From NCBI GenBank assembly GCA_004144185.1, contig SEFP01000001.1, forward strand, positions 434,001-498,000: DNA of 64,000 nt. Direction: 5' to 3'. Source of the stretch: Sphingobacteriales bacterium. Lineage in GTDB: Bacteria; Bacteroidota; Bacteroidia; Chitinophagales; Chitinophagaceae. Below are positions 14,903-22,784 of this stretch, piece after piece. Position 1 is the stretch's first letter. The number at the start of each line of letters is the position of its first letter. The position numbers and the translations under genes are program-made. Below the pieces are notes generated by a model. That model worked only from the letters and a program-made list of their open reading frames with translations, was not told the origin of the DNA and made no database searches.

Positions 14903-14930
14903 CTGGAATCCTACCTTCGCGTTCTCTGCC

Positions 14931-15920
14931 ATGAAAATTGATATTCACACGCACATTCTTCCGGAAAACATTCCCAACTATTTCCAGAAATTCGGGTACG
15001 GGGAGTTTATCCATCTGGAGCATCATTGCCCGGGCTGTGCGCGGATGATCAAAGGCGACAAGGTGTTCCGGGAAATTGAACCGAACTGCTGGGATGCCCC
15101 TACCCGCATTCTGGAGATGGACGCTACAGACGTAAACGTGCAGGTGCTGTCTACGATTCCGGTGCTGTTTAACTATTGGGCGAAACCACAGGATGGGCTG
15201 GAAACCGCGCGATTCTTCAACGATCACATTGCCTCTTGTGTCACGCAGTTTCCCAAGCGGTTTATCGGGCTGGGAACGGTGCCGTTACAGGATATCGACC
15301 TGGCGATCCGCGAGATGGAACGGTGTGTCAAAGAGTTGACATTTCCCGGATTGGAAATCGGTTCCAACATCAACGGCGCCAACCTGAGCGATCCCAAATT
15401 TGATCCGTTCTGGCAGGCCGCCGAAGAACTGGGCTGTGCTTTGTTTGTGCACCCTTGGGAGATGATGGGCGAAGACCAGATGATGAAGTATTGGCTGCCC
15501 TGGTTGGTCGGGATGCCGGCCGAAACGGCACGCGCCATTGCATCCATGATTTTTGGCGGCGTGTTCCGGAAATTCCCGAAGCTGAGGGTGGCGTTTGCGC
15601 ACGGTGGCGGATCGTTTCCGTTTACCGTAGGCCGGATCGAGCATGGCTTCAACGTACGACCCGACCTCTGCGCCATCGATAATCCGATCAATCCACGCGA
15701 CTATCTGGGCCACTTCTGGATTGATGCGCTGCTACACGATGCCGACGCGCTGAACTATGTCCTGAAGACGGTGGGCGAAGACAAGATCTGCTGTGGCAGT
15801 GATTATCCGTTTCCGCTGGGTGAGCATCATCCGGGTCAACTAATTGAAAGCATGGGTTATGACAAGCCGCTGGAGGAAAAACTGCTTTCCGGAAATGTCC
15901 TTGCCTGGCTGAACCTGTAA
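14931..15920 (+). CDS. Amidohydrolase, ACMSD-like decarboxylase
   Basis: A 329-residue TIM-barrel metal enzyme of the 2-amino-3-carboxymuconate-6-semialdehyde decarboxylase family. In the kynurenine pathway it diverts the semialdehyde away from quinolinate and NAD. Metal ligands are His6 and His8 (DIHTHILP), the His of FVHPWEMMG and the Asp of CGSDYPFPLG. Other family blocks are FPKRFIGLGTVPLQD and AHGGGSFPF. Length and motifs match ACMSD closely. No other kynurenine genes are adjacent. Confidence 0.87.
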   Translation: MKIDIHTHILPENIPNYFQKFGYGEFIHLEHHCPGCARMIKGDKVFREIEPNCWDAPTRILEMDATDVNVQVLSTIPVLFNYWAKPQDGLETARFFNDHIASCVTQFPKRFIGLGTVPLQDIDLAIREMERCVKELTFPGLEIGSNINGANLSDPKFDPFWQAAEELGCALFVHPWEMMGEDQMMKYWLPWLVGMPAETARAIASMIFGGVFRKFPKLRVAFAHGGGSFPFTVGRIEHGFNVRPDLCAIDNPINPRDYLGHFWIDALLHDADALNYVLKTVGEDKICCGSDYPFPLGEHHPGQLIESMGYDKPLEEKLLSGNVLAWLNL

Positions 15921-19115: not shown

Positions 19116-20477
19116 ATGTCCCAGCCTCATCTTCGACGCGACCTCAACCTACTTCAGGCCACTGCTATCAATGCCATCGATATGGTGGGCATCGGGCCTT
19201 TTATTACGCTGTCGGGCGTAGCGGCCATTATGGGTGGCAGCGGCAGCATTTATGCCTGGCTGCTGGGTGCGTTGCTTAGTCTGGCAGATGGCACCGTCTG
19301 GGCCTCGCTGGGGGCCAAATGGCCCGAAGCCGGTGGAAGCTATGTCTTTCTCCAAAAGCTGTTTCCACGGGAACGGGGCGGCCGGTTGATGGCGTTTTTG
19401 TTTGTGTGGCAAACCACCCTACAGGCGCCGCTGGTTGTGGCCTCTGCCGCCATCGGTTTTGCGGGTTATTTCCGGTATCTGGTGCCGCTCACCACACTTC
19501 AGGCACGCTTTGTGGCCGGAGGCCTGGTACTGACGATGATCGTTCTGCTGTACCGGGATATCAAAAGCATTGGCCGCATGAGTGTCGTACTGGGCATCAT
19601 TACCGTGGGCACTTTGCTGTGGCTGATTTTCTCTGCGGTGCCGTCCTTTGATGCAGCCGCTGCCTTTCCGAAGTCCTGGAGCGGATTTCCGACCTCGACG
19701 CTGTTTTTTGCCGCGCTGGGCAATGCCACGACCAGCACCGTGTATTCGTACCTGGGCTATTACAACGTCTGCCATCTGGGTGGTGAAATCAAGCAACCGG
19801 AAAAGAATATTCCCCGGGCTATTTTCATATCCATTGCGCTCATCGCAGTATTGTACTTAGCGATGCAGACTGCAGTAGCCGGCGTTCTGCCCGCTGCTGC
19901 CATTGCCGAGTCCAAGTTTGTAGTGAGTCTGTACTTTGAAAAGCTGTACAACGCGGGGGTGGCCAAAATTGCTACCGGATTGATTCTGGTCATCGCGCTG
20001 GCGTCGCTGTTTTCAGTGCTGCTGGGGTACTCACGCATTCCATATGCAGCGGCCAAAGGCGGCGACTACTTTCCGGTCTTCGCCAAGCTGCACCCTACCA
20101 AAAACTTTCCGCACCTGTCGCTGCTTACAATTGGCGGCATTGGCTTTCTGCTCAGCATTGCCTTTACCGAAAAACCCGCAGCGGTGATCAAAGCAATTGT
20201 GATTATGCGCATCTTGGTGCAGTTTATTGCGCAGGCCGTCGGGCTGATCCGCTACCGGCAACTAAATCCGGGAGCTGCGATGCCGTGGAAAATGCCGTTG
20301 TATCCCATCCCGGCGATTCTTTCGATCCTCATCTGGGGGTTTCTGTTCTGCACCGCCGATTTTCCGTTTATACTGGGTTCGGTTACGGTAATCACTGCCG
20401 GGATTGTGCTGTACTTTATCTTCCTGCATGGTCGCCCGTCCAATCCGGAAAGCACTGAAGCCGAGACAGGTCAATAA
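19116..20477 (+). CDS. APC-superfamily amino acid permease
   Basis: A 453-residue inner-membrane transporter with about twelve hydrophobic helices. The N-terminal signature NAIDMVGIGPFITLSG and the glycine-rich GGSGSIYAWLLGALLS, with the GAKWPEAGGSYVFL block, are typical of amino acid/polyamine permeases of the APC superfamily. The substrate cannot be deduced. The ATG at 19116 lies 11 bases after a TACTTTG box. The gene stands alone and ends before a bidirectional hairpin shared with the glycosyltransferase on the other strand. Confidence 0.88.
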   Translation: MSQPHLRRDLNLLQATAINAIDMVGIGPFITLSGVAAIMGGSGSIYAWLLGALLSLADGTVWASLGAKWPEAGGSYVFLQKLFPRERGGRLMAFLFVWQTTLQAPLVVASAAIGFAGYFRYLVPLTTLQARFVAGGLVLTMIVLLYRDIKSIGRMSVVLGIITVGTLLWLIFSAVPSFDAAAAFPKSWSGFPTSTLFFAALGNATTSTVYSYLGYYNVCHLGGEIKQPEKNIPRAIFISIALIAVLYLAMQTAVAGVLPAAAIAESKFVVSLYFEKLYNAGVAKIATGLILVIALASLFSVLLGYSRIPYAAAKGGDYFPVFAKLHPTKNFPHLSLLTIGGIGFLLSIAFTEKPAAVIKAIVIMRILVQFIAQAVGLIRYRQLNPGAAMPWKMPLYPIPAILSILIWGFLFCTADFPFILGSVTVITAGIVLYFIFLHGRPSNPESTEAETGQ

Positions 20478-20602: not shown

Positions 20603-21760
20603 CTAAACGGTCTGAGGCTTCCGGATTCGTTTTCCGGCCAGTGCCTGTTGCAGGTTTCCCATCATACAGTTGTACGTGCTATCCCAGCTCTGTCCGCTGA
20701 TTTCGGCATCGGCTTGTCGCCGCCAAGAGGTCATTTCTTCTTCGGTATCATCGAGTAACGAGTTGGCAACGTTGATAAAGACTTCCGGACCGGACACCAC
20801 CTGTACCAGCCCTTTACGACCATAGGTAGCTACGATGTCTTCAAGAGGTGAGGAGATGACCCGGAGGCCCGCTGCCAGGTATTCGGGCACCTTGGCGGGT
20901 ACCACTGAATAGGTTCCATATCCTTCTTTAAGCGGCACCAGTCCCAGATCCCAGCCCTGTACATACTGCGGCAGCACTTCGTAACTTTTAGTGCCGAGGT
21001 AATGAATATTAGGGGCCTGAGACAGTTCGATTTCCGGAATGTTGACCACCGGACCGATCAGCACAAAATGCCAGTCGGGCTTACTGGAGGCTACTTGTGC
21101 AATCAATCGCATATCGAAGTGCTCATTGATGACTCCATAATAGCCTAGCCGGGGGTGCGGGATGGCCTGCTGATCAGCCGGTTCAGACGCCTGCGGCAGC
21201 CGTGCCTGACCGAAATGCCGGATATCGATCCCGTTGGTACAAACGTTTACATTATTGTTGACTTTTTTACGACTCTTGGCCAGCGCATTTCCGGATGTAA
21301 AAACCAGATCGGCCCGGTCGAGCAGCCGTTCTTCCAGCGCGGTGATATCTGGATGGGCACCCGGCAGATTTTCCGGTTCGCCGATGCAATCGTATACGGT
21401 CAGTGCCGGGGTCAGATGATCGGAGTAGCGGATCGACGCCGGATTGTAATACCAGAAGATAGCATCCTGCGCGCCGTCTGGTCCCAGCAGTTCGTCCAGA
21501 AACGCGCGAATCCGGGTGATATAGGCTTCATCCGGCAATGCAGCAGGCAACATGGGCCGTACCACATGAATCCCGTCGTAATACTCTTGTTCAAATTGAA
21601 TTCCGTCTACTTCAGAAGCCACTTTGCTTTCGATATAAATCACCCGCATGCCGTTGGCAGCGAAGCGCGTCAGCAGATGCTGGGGGCGCTGAAATAAAAA
21701 ATTCCAGCGTAGCGACGCGAAGCAGACCAGCACAGAAGGCATTACCACAGATTGAGGCAT
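20603..21760 (-). CDS. Glycosyltransferase, GT-B fold
   Basis: A 385-residue protein with a GT-B glycosyltransferase layout. The N-terminal Rossmann half starts with the RPQHLLTRFA block (Bacteroidota enzymes often begin WxFLFQRPQHL) and includes TVYDCIGEPENLPGA. The C-terminal half has LGYYGVINEHFD, FVLIGPV, a LGTKSYEVLPQYVQ element and the donor-binding stretch VPAKVPEYLAAGLRVISSP. Such enzymes transfer sugars for exopolysaccharide or teichuronic-like polymers. Donor and acceptor are unknown. It is monocistronic and divergent from a probable ncRNA gene. Confidence 0.85.
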   Translation of the reverse strand: MPQSVVMPSVLVCFASLRWNFLFQRPQHLLTRFAANGMRVIYIESKVASEVDGIQFEQEYYDGIHVVRPMLPAALPDEAYITRIRAFLDELLGPDGAQDAIFWYYNPASIRYSDHLTPALTVYDCIGEPENLPGAHPDITALEERLLDRADLVFTSGNALAKSRKKVNNNVNVCTNGIDIRHFGQARLPQASEPADQQAIPHPRLGYYGVINEHFDMRLIAQVASSKPDWHFVLIGPVVNIPEIELSQAPNIHYLGTKSYEVLPQYVQGWDLGLVPLKEGYGTYSVVPAKVPEYLAAGLRVISSPLEDIVATYGRKGLVQVVSGPEVFINVANSLLDDTEEEMTSWRRQADAEISGQSWDSTYNCMMGNLQQALAGKRIRKPQTV

Positions 21761-21959
21761 AAAAAGGTCATTTTGGGCAAAAAGCTGCCATATCTGACAA
21801 GGCTATTAAAGCTGTGCCGGCCTCAAAATGAGACGCAACCTACCGTATTTGGGCTTGTTTAAGTTTACCCCTTCTATACTGTCTTTTTAGTTGAAACCTT
21901 CCTAAACTTTTGTTACACCTGCACCGGATAAGATTTAGGGAAACAAAAGGCGTCGTACT

Positions 21960-22109
21960 TTAGAGGTACACTCTTCAGCCTTCCTGTATTGCGTCGTAAA
22001 TCGTTATTGTGGGGTCATCAGGAAGGCGAGAAGTAGTCTTACTCCATACGCCATGAGAGAAGAGAGAGGGGAAAACCCGCCGGAATATTCCAGGCGGGTT
22101 TTCCTTTTA
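21960..22109 (+). ncRNA. Candidate structured small RNA
   Basis: A stretch of about 150 bases with no ORF. A 16-bp helix is interrupted by small bulges: 21970-21976 and 21978-21986 pair with 22019-22027 and 22030-22037. Its core is the perfect 9-bp GCCTTCCTG/CAGGAAGGC, enclosing a 32-base loop. The terminator at 22070-22109 follows. Because the neighbour on the left is on the other strand, this plus-strand terminator needs its own transcript. A long helix with an open centre could be a 6S-type RNA, but this was not identified. The 5' end is a guess near a TACTTTAG box at 21957-21964. Confidence 0.45.
22070..22109 (+). terminator. Strong intrinsic terminator
   Basis: A 12-bp perfect stem (22070-22081 with 22093-22104), with a loop that is itself palindromic (GGAATATTCC), followed by TTTTAT. 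It ends a plus-strand RNA just before the J-domain gene. Confidence 0.85.
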
Positions 22110-22127
22110 TAGCATCTTTGCGTTTGT

Positions 22128-22784
22128 ATGCCTGCCGCTTCGCTTCCGGACTATTATGCACTGCTGGGCGTTTCGCCTACGGCAGATGCCGATGCCATCC
22201 GGAAAGCCTACCGGACACAGGCCCGCCGGTATCATCCCGATGCAGCACCCGACAATCCGTTTGCCCCGGCACAGTTCCGGGCGCTGAAAGATGCGTACGA
22301 GATTTTGTCGGTGCCGCAAAAACGCCGTCGTTACGATGACGAACGCTGGCTGCGCGGGCTGTCCGGAAAAACCATTCGGGCGCTTTCACCGGAAACCCTG
22401 ATCCGGGATGCCGAGCGGCTGTGTCAACGCCTTCAAGGTATTGGCCGGTCTGCCGTTCAGCCCCGCGCCTTGCAACAGTTGCTGCTGTATTTGGTGCAGG
22501 ACGCGCACCTGGCGTTGTTTGTCGAGGCCGGAGACGAAGCGCTGAGTGGGTCCTTTGGAGAAACTCTTTTGAATTCAGTCGCTTATCTACCGCACCGGTA
22601 TATCCCGCCGGTACTAACGCAACTGCGCCGGTTGCAGCCTATTCCGGAGGATTTTGAGACGCAGTTAACGACGCTGCTAAAGACCCGGATGCAACAACAC
22701 CAATGGGAGCGCCGCCTGCCCTGGCTGGTCCTGCTGATCACCCTGCTGTTGTGTACCTTGATAGCCCTCAGTCATCGCTCCTGA
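22128..22784 (+). CDS. J-domain protein with C-terminal membrane anchor
   Basis: A 218-residue protein. Residues 7-70 form a DnaJ domain (YYALLGVSPTAD, HPD motif in YHPDAAPDNP, FRALKDAYEILSVPQKRRRYD), which stimulates the ATPase of Hsp70/DnaK partners. The middle is helical and unrecognised. Residues about 197-213 (LVLLITLLLCTLIAL) form one transmembrane helix, so it probably recruits DnaK to the membrane. It lacks the Gly/Phe and zinc domains of DnaJ itself. A CATCTTTG box ends seven bases before the ATG. Confidence 0.88.
   Translation: MPAASLPDYYALLGVSPTADADAIRKAYRTQARRYHPDAAPDNPFAPAQFRALKDAYEILSVPQKRRRYDDERWLRGLSGKTIRALSPETLIRDAERLCQRLQGIGRSAVQPRALQQLLLYLVQDAHLALFVEAGDEALSGSFGETLLNSVAYLPHRYIPPVLTQLRRLQPIPEDFETQLTTLLKTRMQQHQWERRLPWLVLLITLLLCTLIALSHRS

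Follow-up and report, generated by a model that had tools for sequence, protein, structure and literature searches.

Terminator-attenuator leaders, for example those of amino-acid operons, have a structured conserved stretch and a terminator just ahead of the start codon. In Bacteroidota, GibS of Bacteroides thetaiotaomicron is described as a trans-encoded intergenic sRNA of 145 nt, made up of hairpins and a final intrinsic terminator, which is conserved in close relatives and pairs through a conserved single-stranded 5′ region (PMC7366714). The same work reports 27 of the 49 high-confidence intergenic sRNAs of B. thetaiotaomicron as strain-specific (PMC7366714), so lineage-restricted, terminator-ended sRNAs are ordinary in Bacteroidota. 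The table of PMC2864571 has Flavo-1 (RF01705) and 6S-Flavo (RF01685) as separate motifs.

We analyzed a 64,000-nucleotide stretch of the genome of an uncultured Sphingobacteriales bacterium, here called the window, in which a preliminary description had proposed an unannotated structured RNA gene before a J-domain gene. It had called the RNA possibly 6S-like and had joined Flavo-1 with 6S, two motifs that the table just cited keeps apart. In layout, the element found here resembles GibS: it is intergenic, consists of hairpins and an intrinsic terminator, and is kept in a close relative. The likeness is one of layout, and the conserved part of GibS as described is the single-stranded 5′ region, whereas here it is a hairpin and a linker and the 5′ stretch is variable. 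The initial observation is confirmed and the initial interpretation partly supported. On balance, we read the element as a lineage-restricted intergenic sRNA gene on the plus strand, with its own terminator, whose product would act in trans.

Gene context and predicted structure

The element lies in a 367-base gap (21761 to 22127) bounded by a minus-strand glycosyltransferase gene (20603 to 21760; PF13692, E 1.7e-7), which is divergent and upstream, and a plus-strand J-domain gene (22128 to 22784; PF00226, E 2.7e-22), which is downstream and is a possible cis target. A minus-strand SMC gene follows the J-domain gene. The nearest convincing plus-strand gene upstream of the element is a permease gene at 19116 to 20477, and the closer plus-strand frames (e.g., 21538 to 21762, 74 amino acids) are mostly antisense within the glycosyltransferase gene. 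The location and orientation given earlier, with the neighbor on the other strand, are thus right. The J-domain protein is small and has a hydrophobic C-terminal stretch, possibly a membrane anchor.

Three structural parts can be read in the sequence. Hairpin P2 (plus strand, 21978 to 22027) has a 9-bp stem, 21978 to 21986 paired with 22019 to 22027, and a variable loop that keeps an inner stem. It is followed by a near-invariant linker (22028 to 22069), in which 22037 to 22063 can form a hairpin, P3, of 10 pairs with an ACGCC loop. The intrinsic terminator (22070 to 22108) has a stem of 12 perfect pairs (22070 to 22081 with 22093 to 22104) and 3 inner pairs beyond one bulged A, and the stem, which spans 22070 to 22104, runs into TTTTAT. 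The plus-strand terminator announced ahead of the J-domain gene is thus present as described; it is intergenic, and no plus-strand gene is open there. A simple terminator scan did not pick up the hairpin, presumably because of the bulged A.

The window's own fold has 7 outer pairs and the 9 pairs of P2 around a 32-nt loop able to pair further, and it also contains a GGCGU/ACGCC closing helix. This fold accounts for the 16-bp interrupted helix with a large open loop given in the preliminary description, of which the 9-bp core is kept in the relative compared below and the outer pairs are replaced there. Folding of 21940 to 22112 gave a z score of −5.4, with none of 200 shuffles equally good; the low energy is due mostly to the terminator. 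For 21917 to 22050 alone the z score was −0.92, and 41 of 200 shuffles were equally good. A perfect stem of at least 9 pairs arose in 3 of 500 body shuffles, and a hairpin of the stability of P3 in 181 of 500 linker shuffles. Folding of the single sequence thus speaks for the terminator and, with less force, for P2, and it lends P3 no support. By these measures, it is conservation in a relative that raises the element above chance.

Conservation in a relative of the same genus

The comparison rests on one relative of the same genus, G002 (UBA1952; record DDEO01000163.1, by eye), and hence on two sequences in all. Both genomes have the order permease, glycosyltransferase, element, and J-domain gene. 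From the 3′ arm of P2 to just past the terminator (22019 to 22112), 92 of 94 bases are identical: 44/45 over 22019 to 22063 and 48/49 over 22064 to 22112, where the single change is in the terminator loop. The 5′ arm of P2 is identical at 9/9 bases, so that the stem is the same in both species, and the P2 loop at 18/31. Outside these limits identity is 22/54 in the variable stretch before P2 (21922 to 21975), 4/15 past the terminator (22113 to 22127), and 54/129 over 21761 to 21890; a short block in between (21891 to 21921) has 26/31. The flanking genes are identical at 380 of 657 bases (J-domain gene; proteins 53%), 740 of 1,147 bases (glycosyltransferase gene; proteins 62%), and 1,028 of 1,357 bases (permease gene). 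The element holds the two longest exact runs (49 and 26 bases) of the aligned 3.7 kb. The element exceeds conserved coding DNA only modestly: the best 107-base segment of the permease gene reaches 88.8% identity, versus 93.5% in the element. On this alignment, the telling feature is the sharp edges: conservation begins at P2 and ends just past the terminator. The J-domain protein is fast-evolving between the two genus members, yet its gene adjoins a near-invariant RNA element. A gene stretch at 14912 to 15911, some 13 kb away on this conserved contig, has 78% DNA identity to G002.

RNAalifold on the two sequences predicted P2 and, within its loop, the inner stem, as well as P3 and the terminator; P3 is also present when the bodies of the window and G002 sequences are folded separately. 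Among the 46 pairs, two are double-compensatory (21998/22005 and 21999/22004, A-U to U-A, in the P2 inner stem), one is U-G in one sequence and U-A in the other, and none is broken. The two substitutions within 22019 to 22112, at 22036 and 22086, are both in unpaired bases. The P2 arms, P3, and the terminator are invariant, so the covariation evidence does not bear on them. We permuted alignment columns within conservation classes, with the terminator left out. The energy was reached in 2 of 1,000 such shuffles and two double changes in 18; none of the 1,000 combined that energy with the double changes and an unbroken set of pairs. With P2 alone, the energy was reached in 0/1,000 and the double changes in 14/1,000; with the P2 loop alone, the alignment of which is uncertain, the figures were 87/1,000 and 14/1,000. 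Taken by itself, the P2 loop would be modest evidence for a conserved structure. Without the terminator, folding favors the plus strand over the minus strand (−26.9 versus −20.0 kcal/mol), because several of the kept pairs are G-U.

The compensatory changes in relatives on which the preliminary description had staked its candidate are present, but weakly: they amount to two pairs from one pairwise alignment. The sharp-edged conserved block, the hairpin, the two compensatory loop pairs, the conserved terminator, and the plus-strand folding preference together speak for a structured RNA gene as proposed.

Distribution in related genomes

A DNA search of 394 genomes of the family found the element in two, its own genome (G000) and G002; a third match, in G137, covers 38 bases of the terminator alone. 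Among 396 genomes of the order only the own genome was found, G002 presumably not being among those drawn. In a search of 59 relatives at E ≤ 10, at least 57 had matches, which are short and weak except in G000 and G002. We also built a covariance model, R1, on the window and G002 sequences without the terminator. In the 394 family genomes it gave two matches at 117 to 120 bits, in the same two genomes, and one copy of the element in the own genome. A further 28 genomes (29 places) scored 15 to 25 bits (E 0.0066 to 1 per genome), which is fewer than 394 genomes would be expected to yield by chance. In 18 of these 29 places read by eye, 13 of them realigned and 8 of those alignments listed, no common block or following terminator was seen among the alignments listed.

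In the other two of the four genus genomes, G001 (83% complete) and G003 (100%), neither the element nor the glycosyltransferase has a match. A second glycosyltransferase copy in the own genome (L098, G000:C11:307169-308248) is 41% identical to the first, and model R1 finds no element near it. The J-domain gene has full-length relatives in many family genomes. Phage and plasmid records contained no match to the element, and an exact 20-mer of it was absent from viral contigs. Among the listed matches of a literature search on RNAs of this lineage, made by topic, not by sequence, over titles and abstract openings, no description of the element was found.

A probable stand-alone small RNA

The element is likely to stand alone. 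Transcription would start between about 21915 and 21975, from the element's own promoter, and end near 22108, giving an RNA of about 140 to 190 nt. Such an RNA would most likely act in trans, and its invariant exposed bases are the candidate sites for pairing with an mRNA or holding a protein: those that separate P2 from P3, the ACGCC loop, and the purines in a row ahead of the terminator. A target search with the 16-base P3 core found 18 complementary sites, its own included, versus 22 for the reversed control.

A candidate promoter or regulator site is the conserved block at 21891 to 21921 (plus strand), with the core AACCTT[C/G]CTAAACTTTTGTTA. With as many as 3 mismatches allowed, the genome has a single copy of the core and also a single copy of the reversed control. 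Within the block, 21895 to 21915 reads AACCTTCCTAAACTTTTGTTA, a near-palindrome of the form TAAAC-N4-GTTA with one change in G002 and poorly conserved flanks. Between the block and P2, the variable stretch at 21922 to 21975 (plus strand) keeps its length and may be the 5′ part of the RNA or a promoter spacer; from the CTAAACTTTTGTTA motif to P2 the window has 76 bases, and G002 has 77. No clear promoter was found, and scoring of TTG/TAnnTTTG motifs was not decisive. If the block is the promoter, the start would be near 21920; if it is a regulator site, the start would be nearer P2.

As far as sequence comparison goes, the element is a plausible, indeed credible, RNA gene of an ordinary kind. 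If transcribed, it would be an additional, unannotated RNA gene of a Bacteroidota lineage that has been little studied, and it would illustrate that one relative with matching gene order can expose RNA genes missed by Rfam-based annotation.

Relation to the J-domain gene

The main rival reading is that the element is a cis leader of the J-domain gene, with transcripts from an upstream promoter reaching a regulated terminator before the start codon and the conserved P2 and P3 region deciding on read-through. We consider this rather doubtful, though worth taking seriously. The T run ends only 19 bases (window) and 15 bases (G002) ahead of the J-domain start codon, which makes a leader or attenuator possible, and the element adjoins the J-domain gene in both genomes. 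In the 45 bases before the J-domain coding sequence, the best TAnnTTTG box matches at only 4/6 positions in G002 and 5/6 in the window, which is in keeping with a leader; across 30 upstream regions of J-domain genes, 20 have such a box at 5/6 or better, versus 30% of shuffles. When the 3′ terminator arm is removed from the G002 sequence, the first bases of the 5′ arm pair with an upstream CCCC. This alternative pairing is, however, absent from the fold of the window sequence, and no antiterminator common to both species was found. The best pairings of either terminator arm with the body amount to −9.9 to −15.0 kcal/mol, versus −27.8 kcal/mol for the terminator. In addition, the 28 other J-domain upstream regions among those 30 (the other two being those of the window and G002), read by eye, contain no such element. 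Like terminator-attenuator leaders, the element is structured and conserved and has a terminator just before a start codon; it differs in lacking a common antiterminator in our folds and any Rfam leader at gathering score. If transcribed, the element would make a clean case for separating a stand-alone sRNA from the leader of a chaperone gene.

Other readings of the conserved block

The conserved block might not be an RNA but a DNA element, such as a cluster of binding sites or what is left of a mobile element, or it might have passed recently between the two genomes. Its restriction to two genomes at very high identity would fit this, and inverted repeats can bind proteins. The gene order is nevertheless the same in both genomes with diverged flanks, the sequence is single copy in its own genome, and phage and plasmid records give no match; the compensatory pairs and the plus-strand folding preference likewise point to RNA. 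We regard this reading as improbable.

To a further reading we would likewise give little credence. P2, P3, and the terminator might form one compact body and represent an RNA family that has not been described before and is limited to a single Bacteroidota lineage. The ACGCC loop of P3 can pair with GCGU of the P2 loop, and the resulting switchable fold would act in cis on the J-domain chaperone gene or in trans on other genes. The GCGU bases also belong to the P2 inner stem.

It is very unlikely that the element is a small-protein gene. A 19-codon frame at 22053 to 22112 (MREERGENPPEYSRRVFLL), running through the terminator hairpin, remains open in the two species, which differ in it at one residue (Y to H), and it stops where conservation ends. 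That single change, however, alters the amino acid, the bases ahead of the start codon are equally conserved, the frame stops only after the T run, and the compensatory loop changes and strand preference favor RNA. A 14-codon minus-strand frame common to both species, which stops soon after in the window and runs on in G002, was dropped on inspection by eye.

6S RNA and other Rfam families

No Rfam family matches the element at gathering score, and 6S (RF00013, RF01685) has no gathering match in the window. At E ≤ 10, the segment 21760 to 22140 gave 13 Rfam matches, and at E ≤ 1 the G002 element gave 8; none of either set is 6S. Flavo-1 was not among the Rfam matches of the window, of 21760 to 22140, or of G002. 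The Rfam comparison suggested in the preliminary description, including 6S and Flavo-1, thus brought up neither. Matches to rnk_pseudo, RcsR1, microRNAs, and others were weak, far under gathering scores, and mostly on the terminator hairpin, and were discarded. The window contains no tRNA or tmRNA. SRP RNA was rejected, as the own genome carries it elsewhere; it has no match in G002 and is therefore unusable as a yardstick of RNA divergence.

That the element is a divergent 6S RNA is hardly credible: it shares with 6S-Flavo the size class, the terminator, and, in one of two folds, a helix with a large loop, but it has no model match, its GGCGU/ACGCC closing helix is not seen in the G002 fold and so is not conserved, and it occurs in only 2 of 394 family genomes. 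We reject the identity on Rfam, structure, and distribution, and with it the suggestion of a 6S-like RNA; knowledge of 6S RNA is left unchanged by the element. The 6S-Flavo model had no match in the own genome or in the other 35 family genomes searched, so the 6S RNA of this family, if any, escapes that model. Sub-threshold 6S-Flavo matches were seen in three other families of the order (L070 in G052, L071 in G051, and L072 in G047, at 38, 27, and 23.6 bits, respectively), and a divergent 6S RNA beyond the current 6S-Flavo model may exist.
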